This document shows, piece by piece, positions 1,807-32,145 of a DNA stretch of 37,392 bases. Numbering within the stretch: the first letter of the stretch is position 1; the number at the start of each line of letters is the position of its first letter. Under the pieces are notes generated by a model. The model saw nothing but the letters and a program-made list of their open reading frames with translations. It was not told the origin of the DNA and searched no databases. Source of the DNA: a virus; the IMG/VR virus record IMGVR_UViG_3300046167_000319, positions 1-37,392 of that record; one strand, written 5' to 3'. The position numbers were made by a program, and so were the translations under genes.

Positions 1807-2192
1807 GATTATATCCCCTCTATTTGTAACACTACCTAGAAAGACTGTAAAAGATAAGAGGATTGCTTTAAATATGAATACCTATAGGAACTTACATCAT
1901 AGAATAAGTAATGATGCTAAGAAAGCCTATTCAGAAGCTCTTAGAGAGCAGTTAAAGGACTTATCTATACAAACACCTGTCGAGGTAACTTATAAGGTCT
2001 ATAAAGGCCTCTAAAAGGCGTTTAGACAAAATGAATGTCATTAGTGTAGTGAGTAAGTTTTTATTAGACTCGATTACAGATTATGGTTGTTGGGAAGATG
2101 ATTCAGATGATTATATTAAAAAAGAAACCATATTACCTACAGAATTAGATAGAGAAAACCCAAGAGTAGAAATAATTATAAAAGAGATTTAA
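1796..2192 (+). CDS. RusA-like Holliday junction resolvase (frame broken by one extra base)
   Basis: The frame from 1796 stops at 2014 after TYKVYKGL. Removing one G at 2006-2007 joins it to a continuation that reads VYKASKRRLDKMN, then LDSITDYGCWEDDSDDYI and a tail NPRVEIIIKEI ending at 2192. That gives 131 residues with the arrangement of small RusA-family resolvases: a basic helix with D-x-x-N, then a cluster of acidic residues (DDSDD), then a C-terminal beta strand. RusA enzymes cut four-way junctions and other branched DNA. The stop overlaps the start of the next gene (TAATG). The break looks like a sequence error because both halves are conserved-looking. Confidence 0.7.
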
Positions 2193-3390: not shown

Positions 3391-4111
3391 TGCAGATAGT
3401 TTAATCTATGCTTCTTGTTTTAAGAAGAAAGATGATAGAGAGTTTCCTGAAGACTTATTTGAGACAGATGTTAATGTTGCTTTCAATAAGTTTCAAGTTA
3501 GCTTTGAAAGGTTACTTGATTTCTTAGAAGAACAAGTGAATGTTGATGAGGTAGTATTTTGTAATGGTTCTAAGAATAACTTTAGGAAAGATATATCAGC
3601 TACCTATAAGTTAAATAGAACGCAAAAGAGACCAGAGATATTACCTCTACTTCACGATATGGTTAAGCTTGAATACAATTCTATTTATGGAGATGGTGTA
3701 GAGACAGATGATGTTGTAGCTACTCTATGGGCAGAAGAGGTAGAAAAGAATGGTATTGACTCTGTTGTTATAATGTCTTTAGATAAGGATTATAAGCAAT
3801 TCCCTTGTTGGTTTTATGACTACAACTACAAGAAAAGAGAGTTAGTTAAAATATCAGAGCAAGAAGCTAATGAGAACTTCTATTCTCAGATGATTGTAGG
3901 GGATTCAGCAGACAATATAAAGGTTTGTAAGGGTTATGGTAAGGTGTATGCTCAAAAGTTGTTTAAAGACGCTAAAAACAAGTATTCATTAATGAATAGA
4001 ACTTATAGACTTTATAAGCAGGTTTATGGAGATGATGCAAAAGCTATGTTTAATCAAGCTAAATCATTACTAACACTAAAAACAGATTGTTATGAGAACA
4101 TTAAGCGATGA
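3374..4111 (+). CDS. 5'-3' exonuclease / flap endonuclease (PIN-like, T5/T4 RNase H type)
   Basis: 245 residues. Metal-binding acidic motifs are in the expected order: FDADSL (residues 5-10), an arch segment with FRKDISATYKLNR (70-82), GVETDD (108-113), SLDKDYKQ (135-142) and VGDSADNIKVCKGYGKVYA (176-194), the last being the helix-hairpin-helix DNA-binding part. Enzymes of this family remove RNA primers and 5' flaps and can also degrade host DNA. Its place in the replication operon fits. The tail overlaps the next gene by 20 bp. Confidence 0.9.
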   Translation: MKVIFDADSLIYASCFKKKDDREFPEDLFETDVNVAFNKFQVSFERLLDFLEEQVNVDEVVFCNGSKNNFRKDISATYKLNRTQKRPEILPLLHDMVKLEYNSIYGDGVETDDVVATLWAEEVEKNGIDSVVIMSLDKDYKQFPCWFYDYNYKKRELVKISEQEANENFYSQMIVGDSADNIKVCKGYGKVYAQKLFKDAKNKYSLMNRTYRLYKQVYGDDAKAMFNQAKSLLTLKTDCYENIKR

Positions 4112-4334
4112 AGATAGGGATACTGTAGAATTGTACTTCTCGAATGCAATACTTGAGATGCAGGAAGGGTTACCTAAATACATTTTAGAGGACATTTTAG
4201 AATATTACGAAGAACAAGAGTTATACTTGGCTTGTGCTGGTATAAAAAAGGCTTTAGATTGGTATCAAACCAATACCTTTACTAAAGTATTACTTAAAAT
4301 AGAAGAAATAAAAGAAAACAATAAATTAAACTAA
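4092..4334 (+). CDS. Hypothetical acidic protein
   Basis: 80 residues, mostly helical by composition, with runs of Glu and Tyr (DILEYYEEQELYLACAGIKKALDWY). Starts inside the end of the exonuclease gene. No recognisable family. Operon position between exonuclease and the DnaA-C-like gene is all that can be said about its role. Confidence 0.6.
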   Translation: MRTLSDEDRDTVELYFSNAILEMQEGLPKYILEDILEYYEEQELYLACAGIKKALDWYQTNTFTKVLLKIEEIKENNKLN

Positions 4335-4344
4335 AACAAAAAAG

Positions 4345-4884
4345 ATGATAGATTACAACAAAAAAACAGCAGATGAATTAGCAAGAGATTTTGAATTATT
4401 AACAGGTATTGACTTGAATACTAACTCAAGGAAGACTGAAATAATGATTACAAGAACATTATTCTATAAAGTTCTAAGAGATGTTAATTATATGAACGAT
4501 AGAATGATTGCAGAATGGTTTAAAGAACGAGGATTAAAAAGAGATAGGTCTTCTATACTTCAAGCACTACAAAAAATAGGTATTTACTATAAAACATACC
4601 CATCATTCAGAGATTTTTATAATGTTTACTTTAATGATAAGGCTGAAGAGTTTTTTACAATAGAACAGACTCAAAAGAGAGTTTTAAAGGAGTCTAAACG
4701 TAATTTACATATAAACTCATTAAAAATAGGTAAAGATAGCTTAGAATTGCTTATAGACACTATTCCAGAGGATAGAAGAAATGAAATACGTGAACTGATT
4801 ACTATGAGAGTTAAATCTTGGTCTTGGAAGAGTAAAGATGAATGTCAAATAATAGAAGGAGAATCTATATTAGAATTACATTAA
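4345..4884 (+). CDS. DnaA C-terminal-domain-like DNA-binding protein
   Basis: 179 residues. Residues 28-85 (SRKTEIMITRTLFYKVLRD, then MIAEWFKERG and RSSILQALQKIGIYY) follow the pattern of the DnaA duplex-binding domain IV, where an R-x-x-x-x-x-R-x-L helix precedes a helix-turn-helix ending in a histidine/serine-rich recognition helix. There is no AAA+ module. A role in origin recognition or transcription control is possible. The C-terminal half is charged and not recognised. The assignment rests on motif resemblance only. Confidence 0.5.
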   Translation: MIDYNKKTADELARDFELLTGIDLNTNSRKTEIMITRTLFYKVLRDVNYMNDRMIAEWFKERGLKRDRSSILQALQKIGIYYKTYPSFRDFYNVYFNDKAEEFFTIEQTQKRVLKESKRNLHINSLKIGKDSLELLIDTIPEDRRNEIRELITMRVKSWSWKSKDECQIIEGESILELH

Positions 4885-7818: not shown

Positions 7819-8203
7819 GAGTAATTCACAAGAGATTAAGCCAACAGATGGTAGAAAAGGGAATAGTCGTAAGAAATCTATTCCTAAGCTACCTGTACCA
7901 GAAAAAGAGAGGTCTAATAAACCTGCAATGAATACTGCAAAGAAGAATCGTAAGAAACAATATGCTAAAAAGGCTATTAAGAACGTATTTGGGAGCGAAG
8001 TAAACGCTTTTGAGAGTTTAGCTAAGAAAGCAGAAGAAGGTAGCTATAATCATATGAAATTGCTTATGGATTTTGCTTATGGAGATGATAAAGAAGAGGT
8101 TTCTAATAAAGTTCAAGCACCTACTATTAATTTCTTTGGAGATAGTATTGAAGGCAAGAAGATTAAAGATAAGATTATAGACGTAACACCAAAAGATGAA
8201 TAA
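7817..8203 (+). CDS. Terminase small subunit-like protein
   Basis: 128 residues, directly before the large terminase with an 8-bp overlap. Basic N-terminus (GRKGNSRKK, then KKNRKKQYAKKAIK), a helical centre (EVNAFESLAKKAEEGSYNHMKLLMDFAYG) and a C-terminal tail with APTINFFGDS, a layout common in small terminases, which bind the packaging site and recruit the large subunit. Sequence of this family is poorly conserved, so the call leans on position. The ATG lies within the late motif, so a leaderless or nearly leaderless mRNA is possible. Confidence 0.65.
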   Translation: MSNSQEIKPTDGRKGNSRKKSIPKLPVPEKERSNKPAMNTAKKNRKKQYAKKAIKNVFGSEVNAFESLAKKAEEGSYNHMKLLMDFAYGDDKEEVSNKVQAPTINFFGDSIEGKKIKDKIIDVTPKDE

Positions 8204-9408
8204 TATAAATATACACGAGAAATATATACCTATTTTCAAGAACGAAGGTAGGTATTTTGTTGTTACAGGAGGTAGGGGTAGTGGTAAATCATTTGGTATA
8301 AATGTATTCTTACTTAACTTAACCTATGAATCAGGACATAAGATACTGTTCTCACGTTACACGATGATTTCAGCACATACATCTATTATTCCTGAATTTA
8401 TTGAGAAGATTAACTTAATGGGAGTTCACGATGACTTTAGGATAACTAAAGATGAGATTATGAACCTAAAGACAGGTAGCTCTATTATATTTAAAGGTAT
8501 TAGAACATCATCAGGTAATCAAACTGCAGCACTTAAATCCTTGAATGGTATAACTACATTTGTAGTTGATGAAGCAGAAGAACTTGTAGATGAAAGTGTT
8601 TTTGATAAGATTGATTTCTCCATACGTTCACAAACTAAACAGAATAGAGTTATTCTTATACTGAATCCAACAACTAAAGAGCATTGGATATATCAAAGAT
8701 TCTTTCAGAACGAAAACGTATTGGCAGCATCTAATATGGTTAAGGGAGATGTTACTTATGTCCATACAACTTACAAAGATAATAAGACAAACTTATCTGA
8801 ATCGTTCTTAGGTAGGATATATGAAATGAAACGTAAGAGACCAGATAAGTATCAACACCAAATATTAGGAGGTTGGCTTGAGAAAGCTGAAGGTACTATT
8901 ATAAGAAAATGGAGAGTAGGAGACTTTATTCCTACAGAACTTACTTGCTATGGTCAAGGATTTTGGATTTTCAGCCGATTTAACGACACTTGTGAAGATT
9001 TCGGTAGATAAGAACGCAAGAAAGGTTTGGGTTAAGGAAATCTACGGAAAACCTAATCTAAACACATCTGAGATAGCAGGTATGAATAAACGAGAGTGTG
9101 GTATGGATTTAATTATCTGTGATAATAGTGAGCCACGTTTAATATCAGAGATGAAAACATTAGGTCTTAATATAAAGCCTACAATTAAGAAGAAAGGTAG
9201 TATATTATCAGGTATTGCTCTTATGCAAGATTATGAGATAGTAGTTGATAGAGGTTCTCACGGCATAATAAGAGAGCTAAACAACTATGTATGGAAAGAT
9301 AAGGGTGAAGCTCCAATAGATAAGTTTAATCACTTTATAGATGCTATTAGGTATGGTATGATGTACTTAATACAGGGAGTAAACTCTGGAGTTTATGTGA
9401 TAAGGTAA
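8196..9408 (+). CDS. terL: Terminase large subunit (frame broken by one extra base)
   Basis: N-terminal ATPase: Walker A GGRGSGKS (residues 25-32), Walker B FVVDEAEE (about 125-132) and a coupling motif ILNPTTKEHW. The frame from 8196 runs out at 9011; deleting one G at 8958-8959 joins YGQ to DFGFSADLTT, the first metal-binding motif of the RNase H-like nuclease domain. The nuclease continues with LIICDNSEP and FNHFIDAIRYG (motifs II and III). Joined length 403 residues, normal for a phage TerL. It packages DNA into the prohead at the portal. The frame break falls exactly at the nuclease motif and would separate the two domains if it were real. Confidence 0.9.
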
Positions 9409-13044: not shown

Positions 13045-13188
13045 ATGAAACGAAAAGAAATAATTAATACAATATTGGATTTGTCAGGTGAGGAATTCGA
13101 AACTAAAAACGATATATTGGATTTGGCTTATGAAAATAAAAAACAATTAAAAAAAAGATTAATAACTATAAACAATTACATACCATAA
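13045..13188 (+). CDS. Small hypothetical protein
   Basis: 47 residues with a helical Lys-rich end (ENKKQLKKRLITINNYIP). Starts 4 bp after the preceding stop and is followed by a terminator at 13208, so it closes the small-gene string. Confidence 0.45.
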   Translation: MKRKEIINTILDLSGEEFETKNDILDLAYENKKQLKKRLITINNYIP

Positions 13189-13207: not shown

Positions 13208-13244
13208 AACCTATTATGATTCATTTTGTAATAGGTTTTTTTTA
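13208..13244 (+). terminator. Rho-independent terminator
   Basis: AACCTATTA, 12-nt loop, TAATAGGTT, then a run of eight T. Ends the accessory transcript coming from the left and also marks the left edge of the gene-free region. Confidence 0.85.
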
Positions 13245-13785
13245 TGCAATTATTTTTGTAATTACTTGGTATTGTATGGGGGTATAATACAGGAATTTAA
13301 ACCGATATTCAAAACTCATTTTAAGACGTTTTAAGACACTCAAATATCAAATCTATAGTAGTATACCACCTGCAGGGTGATAATGGCGTAGAATGGAGAT
13401 TTAAATTGTGTAGTATGTCACTTCTATGAATTCAAACCTAAGTCAAATATCTTTTCGTTTAAAACTGACATATCAATTTTGAAAATATAATAATTAGTCC
13501 AATACTGATTATAGTCTAATATCTTTTTGTTATAAATAGGTAATTTAATTTTGAAAATATAATTATATGCTCGATGGTTAGATATGCACCCTCCTATAAT
13601 CTTAATGTATGTTAGTAGTTAGCTAACTGATATAACTGGTTATGCTCGTTAGTTTGAATATCTATTGGGTGCTACGAAGATTATAAAGGTTATAGATGCA
13701 ATTACTAAGGAGACTTAATGTATCTGAACCAATAGCCTTACGATTGTGACTAAAGTTTGGTAGGTTAGAGAGAACTACAACTCTG
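13245..13785 (-). ncRNA. Candidate structured RNA under a late-type promoter
   Basis: About 540 bp without a credible reading frame on either strand. A full late-type promoter motif points into it from the right (13786-13817, minus). Visible structure: two related direct repeats of about 52-55 bp (13442-13496 and 13514-13565, sharing AATATCTTTT and AATTTTGAAAATATAAT), a tandem TTTTAAGAC pair near 13320, a hairpin CACC/GGTG near 13375, and two long-range pairings, GCACCC (13586-13591) with GGGTGC (13667-13672) and TATAATCTT (13595-13603) with AAGATTATA (13677-13685), whose order makes a pseudoknot. The strand is inferred from the promoter; one hairpin (13269-13290) pairs better on the plus strand. 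No known RNA family recognised. Confidence 0.4.
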
Positions 13786-13817
13786 TATATTAAGATAACT
13801 AAATAATTTATTTTTGT
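13786..13817 (-). promoter_or_regulatory. Late-type promoter motif on the minus strand
   Basis: Reading leftward: ACAAAA (13817-13812), then 17 nt from its start AGTTATCTTAATATA (13800-13786). The stretch around it is nearly identical to the motif at 26542-26573, including the spacer AATAAATTATTT. No gene on the minus strand follows it, only the structured region 13245-13785. Confidence 0.6.
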
Positions 13818-13865
13818 TTGTGTATAATGTTGTATTATAAATAAATAGTATAGTATAGTTATTTA

Positions 13866-14027
13866 CTATAGATTTTTCTTATACTTATCAAATATCATTA
13901 TATCGTGGTATTGGCTTTTGTTTAGTTTAAGACTTAGTAGGTCTTGTTTAGCTTCTTTTCTTTTGTTGCTTATAGGTAATCTATCTATAAGTTGTTGTAG
14001 TTTCTGTATTAGTTTTCTTCTGTTCAT
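13866..14027 (-). CDS. Small basic protein
   Basis: 53 residues on the minus strand: MNRRKLIQKLQQLIDRLPIS, then a Lys-rich helix ending FDKYKKNL. Last gene of the four-gene minus-strand operon, 10 bp after the membrane protein. Possibly helical and nucleic-acid binding; no family recognised. Confidence 0.5.
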   Translation of the reverse strand: MNRRKLIQKLQQLIDRLPISNKRKEAKQDLLSLKLNKSQYHDIMIFDKYKKNL

Positions 14028-29400: not shown

Positions 29401-29572
29401 CAGTTCTTGGTGGGGTAGTCCAACTGCAACTGGTTGGGGAAATATTTATTATGAATATGCTTTTCCAAGTGAAGGGTCAAGACTTTTAGGTTTATTAGAG
29501 GCAAGAGCAACGTATTATGAGAATGCTACTTCTTCACTTGCAATATTAACTGATTTAGAAAACTGTGAATAA
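29381..29572 (+). CDS. Small fibre-region protein
   Basis: 63 residues, aromatic and Gly-rich (SSWWGSPTATGWGNIYYEYA). Directly before the first fibre gene with a one-base overlap. Might be a short fibre-associated or adaptor protein. No family recognised. Confidence 0.5.
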   Translation: MANEIYNSSWWGSPTATGWGNIYYEYAFPSEGSRLLGLLEARATYYENATSSLAILTDLENCE

Positions 29573-30933
29573 TGAGTAATTTATTAGAAAAAGCGAGTAT
29601 AATAACTACACCAACTGCATATAGTGATGGGGTTTTACATAGTGTTAAGCCAAGTGAAAGTCCTTATGCTGATTTTACATTTACAAGAAACGATGCAGGA
29701 ACAAGAGTAAACGCAAGTGGTAATATAGAAAGCGTAGGAGTTGATTTACCAAGAATAGATTATAGAGGTGGTAGTGGTAGTTGGTTATTAGAACCACAAG
29801 CTATAAATACTGCAACTGATTCAAATGATTTTACAACGGGCAATATATTTGAAGGGGGTGGTAATCCAACTTTTACATCTGCTACTTTAACATCTGCACA
29901 AGCTACTTCTCCTGACGGTACTAATAATGCGTGGAAGTTAGCAGATAACAATGATGGGAATACTGGTCAATGTGCTGTAAATTATTTTAATACAGATGTT
30001 ATATCTGAAAACTATAATACGGTTTCTTTATTTGTTAAAAAACAAGGTGATAATGATTGGATGTATATTAATAATGTTGGGTATGATACAACAAGTAGAA
30101 GTTGGTTTAATATTTCAAACGGAACTTTAGGAAAAGTTGCAAGTGGTCATACTGCAAGTATTGATGATTATGGAAATGGTTGGTATAGAATAGCAATTAC
30201 ATTTACAACAGAGATTGATTTAAATGGTGGTGTTAATATTAGATTAGCAACATCTAATAATGGTACATTTATTTTAAGAGATGGAACAAACGGAGTTTAC
30301 ATTTACGGACTTCAAGCAGAATCACACGCTACAAGACAATACGCAACTTCATACATTCCTACAAGTGGTTCACCACAAACAAGAGGAGCAGATTCAGCAA
30401 CAGATGCAGGTAGTAGTGATTTAATAAATTCAACAGAAGGGGTGTTTTATGCTGAATTAAAAAGTATTGCTGAATTTGTAAACGAGGGTTCATCTATAGG
30501 TATTAATAATGGTAGTGCTCAAAGTAGAATTAATATTTTTAAAACACCTACTAATAATAAACTATTAATTCAAGTAAGAGCCCAAAACAATTCAGTTAAT
30601 TTCGGTTATACTTCAACTACAACAAACGTTGATTTTGAAAAAGTTGCTATTAAATGGAAGTCTGGGGATTATGCAATTTGGATTAATGGGGTTGAAGTCA
30701 AAACAAGTACAAGTACTATTTTACCAATAGGTTTAAATAGAGTTAATTTTAATGGATTTGGTACAACTTTCCAACCATTTCAAGGAAATATAAAATGCGT
30801 AGCAGTATTCAAAGAAGCATTAACAGATGCAGAATTAACTTGTTTAACAACACCAAATATATCAAGAATATTTAATGATAGAGTTTTATGGGATGGAGGA
30901 ATAATAGAAAGTTTAGAATGTGTAACGCTTTAA
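29572..30933 (+). CDS. Receptor-binding/tail fibre protein with lectin-like domain
   Basis: 453 residues. N-terminal block DFTFTRNDAGTRVNASGNIE, LLEPQAINT; a central module (TSPDGTNNAWKLADNNDG, VSLFVKKQGDNDWMYIN); then HATRQYATSYIPTSGS and a C-terminal ConA/LamG-like domain (STEGVFYAELKS, KVAIKWKSGDYAIWINGVEV, LTDAELTCLTT). Such proteins bind host surface sugars. It shares frame and motifs with the next gene, so the two are paralogues. Ends in a Cys-containing strand. Confidence 0.7.
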   Translation: MSNLLEKASIITTPTAYSDGVLHSVKPSESPYADFTFTRNDAGTRVNASGNIESVGVDLPRIDYRGGSGSWLLEPQAINTATDSNDFTTGNIFEGGGNPTFTSATLTSAQATSPDGTNNAWKLADNNDGNTGQCAVNYFNTDVISENYNTVSLFVKKQGDNDWMYINNVGYDTTSRSWFNISNGTLGKVASGHTASIDDYGNGWYRIAITFTTEIDLNGGVNIRLATSNNGTFILRDGTNGVYIYGLQAESHATRQYATSYIPTSGSPQTRGADSATDAGSSDLINSTEGVFYAELKSIAEFVNEGSSIGINNGSAQSRINIFKTPTNNKLLIQVRAQNNSVNFGYTSTTTNVDFEKVAIKWKSGDYAIWINGVEVKTSTSTILPIGLNRVNFNGFGTTFQPFQGNIKCVAVFKEALTDAELTCLTTPNISRIFNDRVLWDGGIIESLECVTL

Positions 30934-30963: not shown

Positions 30964-32145
30964 ATGGCAACACCAAGTATAACAATGATACCAAGCGGTT
31001 ATAAATCTCAAAAGGTTTATTCTGTACTTCCTACTAATGGAGATGGAGATTTAACCTTTGATAGAAATAATATAGGTACAAGAGTAAATAAAAACGGTTT
31101 AATAGAACAAGTATCAACAGATGTTCCAAGATTGGATTATTCTGATGGGAGTTGTCCAAGTCTATTATTAGAACCTTCAAGTACTAATTTAGTTATTGGT
31201 TCAGCAGAGGGGAATTATGGAGGTGGACAATCAAGTGCAACTAACACTATAAGTCCAGATGGAACAAATAATGCTTTTATACCAACTCCAGACTATGTTT
31301 ACAGAAGATACGAAGAAATAATACCAGCAGGAACTTACTCAAATGGTCAAAAACTTACATACTCTTGGTACAGAAAAAGAATATCAACACCAACTGGAGT
31401 TTCAAGAACTGGAGATTTAAACATAAAAAGTCTTGTAAATTTAACTGAATTAGAAACAAGTAATGCAACTCAAATAGAATCAAACATAAATGGTTTTGAT
31501 AGATTTCAAGCAGTTGTAGAAATTATAGATGGTTCTTTAGAATCAATATTTAGAGCATATTTTGGTGATGTTGTAGAAGTAGGTAATTCAAGTGTAGCTT
31601 ATTTCGGACATCAATTTGAAGCTTTACCATACGCAACTTCATATATTCCAACAACAACTGGTTCAGCATCAAGAGGTGTAGATTCAGCTTCTAAAGATGG
31701 TTTAAGTTCTTATATAAGTTCAACAGAAGGAGTTTTGTATGCTGAATTAAAAGCACTTTCTTCAGAATCCACTAATCAAAGATGGATATATATTGGAGAT
31801 GGGAGTATAGATAATTTTGTAGCCATTGTGTATATGCCTACATCAAACGAATTAGTAGCATACGGTTTAAATGGAGGTAATTCATCTCTTTATATCAGTA
31901 CAACAAATTATAATTTGACTGATGATTTAAAAGTTGCTATTAAGTGGAAAGAAAATGATTCACAACTATATATAAATGGTTCTCTTATAGATACAGATAC
32001 AGATACACAAGATTTTAATTTTACATTTAGTGAATTAAGATTAGAAGGAAGTGCTGCTAATAAATTCTACGGAAAAGTAAAAGATTTAAGAGTTTATAAT
32101 ACTGCATTAACAGATTTAGAATTACAAGAATTAACAACAATATAA
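30964..32145 (+). CDS. Second receptor-binding/tail fibre paralogue
   Basis: 393 residues. Same order of blocks as 29572-30933: LTFDRNNIGTRVNKNGLIEQ, LLLEPSSTNLV, ISPDGTNNAFIPTPD, YATSYIPTTTGSASRGVDSA, STEGVLYAELKA, KVAIKWKENDSQLYINGSLI, LTDLELQELTTI. The first and last parts are best kept, the centre differs, as expected when receptor-contact regions diverge. Starts 30 bp after the first fibre gene without its own promoter. Confidence 0.7.
   Translation: MATPSITMIPSGYKSQKVYSVLPTNGDGDLTFDRNNIGTRVNKNGLIEQVSTDVPRLDYSDGSCPSLLLEPSSTNLVIGSAEGNYGGGQSSATNTISPDGTNNAFIPTPDYVYRRYEEIIPAGTYSNGQKLTYSWYRKRISTPTGVSRTGDLNIKSLVNLTELETSNATQIESNINGFDRFQAVVEIIDGSLESIFRAYFGDVVEVGNSSVAYFGHQFEALPYATSYIPTTTGSASRGVDSASKDGLSSYISSTEGVLYAELKALSSESTNQRWIYIGDGSIDNFVAIVYMPTSNELVAYGLNGGNSSLYISTTNYNLTDDLKVAIKWKENDSQLYINGSLIDTDTDTQDFNFTFSELRLEGSAANKFYGKVKDLRVYNTALTDLELQELTTI

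Follow-up and report, generated by a model that had tools for sequence, protein, structure and literature searches.

The IMG/VR record IMGVR_UViG_3300046167_000319 comprises 37,392 bases, and the whole of it was analyzed here (hereinafter, the window). Profile searches of the window identify a tailed phage (Table 1). By portal and tail protein, the sole cultured kin are the Nonlabens phages P12024S and P12024L, at 28-32% identity, whose hosts are Nonlabens/Persicivirga. Because these are the only cultured kin, a flavobacterial host is likely and, judging from these protein similarities, the phage family as a whole probably infects flavobacteria. A search of the GTDB genomes recovered neither a flanking protein of the locus described below nor the RNA-core pattern (one pattern was used) and hence provides no host or prophage link. 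Two features of the virion gene complement deserve mention. The large terminase is represented in the window by two overlapping ORFs (8196-9011 and 8950-9408, plus strand), and its relatives (for example, L105, L226 and L164) have a single ORF of 403-404 aa; the split reflects either a sequencing error or a real frameshift. The adjacent proteins encoded at 29572-30933 and 30964-32145 (plus strand) both match the tail-protein family phrog_5939, which suggests that a gene for a tail or fibre protein was duplicated in tandem.

Between a minus-strand ORF (13866-14027) and a plus-strand operon that ends at position 13188 lies a gene-free region that, read on the minus strand, is the subject of this analysis. 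In every contig that covers the neighbourhood, this element, referred to below as the RNA, and the tail operon occupy opposite strands, and the terminase is located on the other side. In a distant group of relatives, the start of the RNA is located about 90 bp from the first tail gene, in divergent orientation and within a common intergenic region; in the clade of the window, a few minus-strand genes separate the RNA from the tail operon. The RNA does not follow the neighbouring gene for a 121-aa protein, because relatives of this protein at 56-61% identity (L051-L085) occur without it. At the 3' end of the RNA, the terminator of the convergent plus-strand operon may stop both transcripts.

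Table 1. Features of the window that are relevant to the RNA locus (nt, RNA numbering, with nt 1 at the inferred start, 13785)
Feature	Position	Strand	Evidence
Terminase	8196-9408	+	Profile search
Tail genes	from ~15 to 23 kb		Profile search
Head protease-like gene	23344		Profile search
Portal	27171		Profile search
Erf-type annealing protein	36034		Profile search
SSB	36759		Profile search
AGTTATCWTARTA copy	7805	+	Before terminase block
AGTTATCWTARTA copy	15018	+	Before tail operon
AGTTATCWTARTA copy	23317	+	Before protease block
AGTTATCWTARTA copy	26559	+	Before portal block
Putative late-promoter motif copy, AAATAAATTATTTAGTTATCTTAATATA	13786-13819	-	Directly before the RNA; exact AGTTATCWTARTA at 13788-13800
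Whole conserved noncoding RNA, ~541 nt	13245-13785	-	blastn, alignments, no conserved ORF, conserved 5' and 3' boundaries
5' domain (~206 nt), covered by model R1	13580-13785	-	Covariation; R1 matches down to 95 bits
P1 hairpin (nt 3-5/14-16)	13770-13783	-	GC11/CG4 compensatory swap
P2 stem-loop (nt 26-29/54-57 and 34-37/50-53)	13729-13760	-	Inner stem: 4 of 4 pairs altered on both sides, pairing kept
P3/stem a hairpin (5' side nt 72-94, 3' side nt 121-142)	13644-13714	-	17 pairs
Stem b, 5' side, TATAATCTT (nt 101-109)	13677-13685	-	Partner of 13595-13603; matched variants
Stem b, 3' side, AAGATTATA (nt 183-191)	13595-13603	-	Matched variants
Stem c, 5' side, GCACCC (nt 114-119)	13667-13672	-	Matched variants
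Stem c, 3' side, GGGTGC (nt 195-200)	13587-13592	-	Matched variants
54-nt repeat, copy 1 (RNA order)	13513-13566	-	78% identical to copy 2
54-nt repeat, copy 2 (RNA order)	13441-13494	-	Repeat comparison
49-nt unit, TTGAATTCAT..TACTACACA..TACG	13387-13435	-	One copy in the window
Terminator of convergent plus-strand operon, hairpin plus T-run	13209-13243	+	Sequence; hairpin similarly placed in many homologues

The motif AGTTATCWTARTA is present in exactly 5 copies in the window, compared with 0.08 expected from shuffles, and none of 100 shuffled sequences reached 5. Four copies front virion gene blocks, and the remaining one, the minus-strand copy at 13788, fronts no ORF, just as the sequence-only reading of this DNA had described it: a full late motif without a gene. 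An additional copy with one mismatch precedes the next gene (24386), and a related motif is retained upstream of the homologous RNAs. From the genes that it accompanies, we infer that the motif is a late promoter, and the promoter motif common to this locus and the virion operons implies that the RNA is transcribed late from its own copy. Upstream of this putative promoter, many relatives keep an inverted repeat (13825-13865 in the window, ~735-765 in L101), with perfect 9-bp arms (GGACTATAT/ATATAGTCC) in L101 and degenerate arms in the window, which could be either an operator or a terminator that serves the genes upstream.

The 540 bp that follow the minus-strand motif had been noted to resist translation, and indeed, the longest ORF within 13245-13785 is 33 aa. 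No reading frame is common to 25 full-length homologues, in which the longest ORFs, of 18-67 aa, differ in frame and strand. The full-length homologues are 499-592 nt long, and both the 5' and the 3' boundaries are conserved among them; in most copies, the RNA ends with a conserved AATAATTGCA-like stretch followed by an A-run and the hairpin of the convergent operon's terminator. Single-sequence thermodynamic folding is no better than that of shuffled sequences (z 0.08 for the minus strand and 0.83 for the plus strand). With fold energy this ordinary, which is what AT-rich intergenic filler with an accidental pseudoknot-like pattern would display, chance could be excluded only by comparison. 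The conservation and covariation described below run counter to such an accident, and the compensatory changes refute it, leaving it with a negligible probability.

More than 40 IMG/VR contigs carry a conserved copy of the RNA. In a blastn search with a 671-base query, about 30 contigs match the region, most of them at 73-95% nucleotide identity, and an exact 18-mer of the pseudoknot matches 18 contigs. Applied to contigs fetched via a distant tail protein or short patterns, R1, the covariance model built for the 5'-terminal 205 nt of the RNA, detects divergent copies outside its training set with E-values of about 1e-14 to 1e-27; the weakest match, at 95 bits, is L164, a copy with 45% GC. An alignment (A4) includes 43 sources, 34 of them distinct in sequence. 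The check suggested along with the original observation, in which homologues adjoining the tail operons of other phages are sought by covariance, was thus positive: the same tail operon is found wherever the neighbourhood is covered. Among annotated phages (INPHARED), DNA searches yield only short AT-rich chance matches, and a literature search of partial coverage found no description of this RNA.

Compensatory changes are found in most helix blocks of the 5' domain, including both stems of the previously proposed pseudoknot. Across 15 sequences, P1, P2, P3/a and stems b and c are paired in 97.9% of 632 cells, with 14 pairs changed on both sides (all compensation counts refer to sequences, not to independent events). 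The covariation score is 0.257, compared with 0.123 in shuffled alignments, none of which (0 of 500) scored as high; when the partners are slid by 1-3 columns, only 36-42% of the cells pair and the score does not exceed 0.05. In the inner stem of P2 and the inner part of stem a, the sequence is exchanged wholesale with pairing kept; in the inner 6 bp of stem a, 5 of the 6 pairs are doubly compensated and pairing is 100%. The two arm pairs, with gaps of 3, 63 and 4 nt, are exactly where the sequence-only reading placed them, and both are conserved and compensated in homologues, which bears out the pseudoknot proposed there. Stem b exists in the matched forms TATAATCTT/AAGATTATA, TATTGTTTT/AAAACAATA, GTTATTTT/AAAATAAC and TGCTCT/AGAGCA and is short or imperfect in L029-L031 and L216. 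Stem c is invariant among the 15 sequences; its matched variants, which come from more distant copies and by eye represent about three events, are GATGCCC/GGGCATC in L245, L288, L306, L307, L222 and L195 (and, with one G-U pair, in L258), AACACCC/GGGTGTT in L187, and TGCGCCC/GGGCGCA in L164. The own-half pairing of stem c amounts to 214 of 238 cells; across 2000 shuffles, the mean was 191 and no value exceeded 204. Furthermore, G-U pairs occur at positions that are otherwise G-C or A-U (for example, CG to UG in 10 of 25), which suggests that selection acts on the RNA and not on a cruciform in the DNA. Comparison of the homologous sequences, then, establishes the boundaries, the noncoding character, helices P1, P2 and P3/a, and stems b and c.

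The loop of hairpin a holds the 5' halves of b and c, both of which pair downstream of a, and b crosses c. The resulting stem order, a-b-c-a'-b'-c', is that of an ABCABC 'pseudotrefoil', and each of the three stems shows compensatory changes. The third stem (a), crossed by both arm pairs, the boundaries of the RNA and the 49-nt unit are additions to what had been noticed originally. The three stems may form simultaneously, or they may alternate. The b-c linkers are 3-4 nt long in the clade of the window and 10-15 nt in other clades, and given these lengths, side-by-side packing of the stems is plausible. Multiple crossing stems are typical of ribozymes, and the crossing stems observed here would fit a self-cleaving or self-splicing RNA or a degenerate intron. 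However, there was no match to the Rfam models of group I introns, ribozymes, tmRNA or RNase P, and a search with the RNA and two divergent homologues at E<=10 gave only chance matches (miRNA, terminator-like), with no intron or ribozyme among them; moreover, the RNA does not lie within a gene and has neither an exon junction nor a homing gene. This explanation therefore appears very improbable.

The 3' part of the RNA consists of one or two units of about 54 nt and one or more 49-nt units. The two related direct repeats of about 52 bp recognized from the window sequence are, more precisely, 54 nt long (Table 1); L105 and L096 have a single copy. The 49-nt unit has the form TTGAATTCATTGAAnTG..TACTACACA..TTTACG across relatives and is present in two tandem copies, with a period of exactly 49, in L090, L026, L027 and L049. 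In this part, sequence is conserved rather than pairing, with little covariation, which makes the fold of the 3' domain, and even its membership in the same RNA, less certain. Two candidate helices were rejected: a hairpin inside the 49-nt unit that is only 71-82% paired and a long-range closing helix in the full-length consensus fold (nt 20-24 with ~470-474), in which 16% of the cells are broken.

The two parts of the RNA are separable, because three contigs retain 3' units without the 5' domain. In L024, the promoter and the 3' part are kept, and an 83-aa ORF (1914-2162, minus strand) is located at the place of the 5' domain, so that a small protein gene has apparently replaced the structured domain in this single contig. 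L028 (~950-1150) and L049 (6248-6350) contain 49-nt units only. In these two contigs, the units follow a gene for a 133-aa protein and what appears to be its terminator. L025 lacks the RNA altogether and has other genes at the site, including a 249-aa ORF (3967-4716, minus strand, beside the tail operon) that by eye resembles a Dam methyltransferase; in P12024S, an unfiltered model search detects no copy (best 9.9 bits). The absence of the RNA from L025 and of its 5' domain from L024, L028 and L049 indicates that it is accessory rather than indispensable to the virion programme.

The 3' units also bear on the main rival explanation, namely, that the region is a replication, packaging or DNA-level element, such as a phi29-like pRNA, a primer of the ColE1 RNA II type or a 3' protein-binding array. 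The status of main rival comes primarily from the fixed 49-nt period: the units are constant in length and period across divergent phages, with sequence conserved and pairing not, as would be expected of binding sites. These units persist without the 5' domain, and the element is found within a few kb of the terminase gene wherever a contig covers both. The replication primer transcript of ColE1, RNA II, is about 550 nt long with a structured 5' part. The phi29 packaging RNA, a component of the phi29-type motor, is a phage-encoded structured RNA used late, as the present RNA would be, but it is only 120-174 nt long; the phage analyzed here has a classical large terminase, and its RNA is absent from some relatives. 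Against a DNA-level role, the G-U intermediates and the compensated pseudoknot stems of the 5' domain favour RNA, and the complete lack of the element in relatives such as L025 and P12024S would not be expected of an origin or packaging site that is essential. The RNA contains the start or the end of many IMG/VR contigs (for example, L095, L099, L100, L102, L313, L092, L104, L039 and L037), and others run through it. Mixtures of strains with a common conserved block could explain such ends, which are probably assembly breaks at a block near-identical between co-occurring strains; the contigs that run through, together with the high conservation of the block, make assembly tangles likelier than physical genome ends. 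On balance, a replication, packaging or DNA-level element seems unlikely.

Taken together, the comparative evidence makes it highly probable that the region encodes a late, structured, stand-alone noncoding RNA of about 540 nt, in line with the large noncoding RNA suggested by the sequence-only reading. As for its mode of action, transcription would start at the motif copy, proceed away from the tail operon and end at the convergent terminator, and the product would act in trans as a folded platform. The pseudotrefoil formed by stems a, b and c would be a rigid binding or assembly core, and the repeat-rich 3' part, with its 54-nt and 49-nt units in variable copy number, would supply repeated binding sites. 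Such an RNA might build an RNA-RNA or RNA-protein assembly or titrate a host or phage protein during virion production. We favour this platform mechanism tentatively, at less than even confidence. A trans-acting platform fits best with the inferred late timing, elaborate core, variable repeats, lack of an encoded protein, lack of a phage antisense target above chance, and dispensability. Of its particular versions, self-assembly of the kind seen in GOLLD and ROOL is rather unlikely, and a protein-binding sponge or RNP has a still smaller chance.

A regulatory RNA that works in trans or as an antisense transcript by pairing with mRNAs of the phage or host, and that might, for instance, time the neighbouring tail operon, would be compatible with the late-promoter motif and with the divergent arrangement relative to the tail operon, across a common intergenic region in the distant group. 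We consider this improbable, given that perfect complementarity elsewhere in the window extends over at most 13 nt, which is within the range of Markov-shuffled RNA (12-16 nt), and that conserved pairing over ~205 nt exceeds the needs of a small regulatory RNA. Extending the platform reading, we would propose, with somewhat more reserve than the mechanism itself, that this is an undescribed class of large phage RNA, co-regulated with the virion genes and with a maintained ABCABC core, that forms, or serves as the scaffold of, a multimeric particle of RNA or of RNA and protein while flavobacterial phages produce their virions.

The topology of the core is rare. The ABCABC pseudotrefoil is the genus-1 subclass 1C, represented by 51 RNA sequences, compared with 1688 for the plain H-type, in a survey in which the average length of ABCABC pseudoknots was 73.6 nt (PMC3390330). 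The stem order in the phage RNA is the same; unlike the surveyed examples, however, the fold here spans ~115-130 nt inside an RNA of ~540 nt. With several compensatory changes, it lends itself well to testing structure prediction and cryo-EM.

Large structured RNAs have been described from bacterial viruses in only a few cases, two of which, GOLLD and ROOL, were recently found to form homo-oligomeric cages made solely of RNA, the purpose of which is unknown. ROOL (Rumen-Originating, Ornate, Large) is encoded by phages and prophages, is 659 nt long in the solved example and has several pseudoknots, no protein frame and an unknown function; GOLLD is a large phage-encoded RNA with one conserved and one less conserved part and with higher expression during lysis; both self-assemble (PMC12286853). 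The RNA described here resembles ROOL as a large phage RNA of similar size that is pseudoknotted and has no protein frame, and resembles GOLLD as a large phage RNA with one conserved and one less conserved part. The differences are nevertheless substantial. The original reading recognised neither type here. At the Rfam gathering thresholds, no family, GOLLD and ROOL included, matches anywhere in the window, nor do these two match the RNA or two of its divergent homologues at E<=10. ARAGORN finds no tRNA in the window, whereas GOLLD and ROOL are often, though not obligatorily, located near tRNA islands. The resolved part of the secondary structure shows no noted resemblance to ROOL. Compared with GOLLD, the RNA is shorter, and it is the 5' part that is conserved, as opposed to the universally conserved 3' region and variable 5' region of GOLLD. 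By model match, tRNA neighbourhood and the identity of the conserved part, then, the RNA is a member of neither class, and it is best treated as a new class in the loosely defined group of large structured phage RNAs, with GOLLD and ROOL as its nearest kind. As a third, unrelated class, with a late-promoter motif, a fixed site at the tail operon, natural losses and a replacement, it offers a comparative handle on the role of such RNAs.
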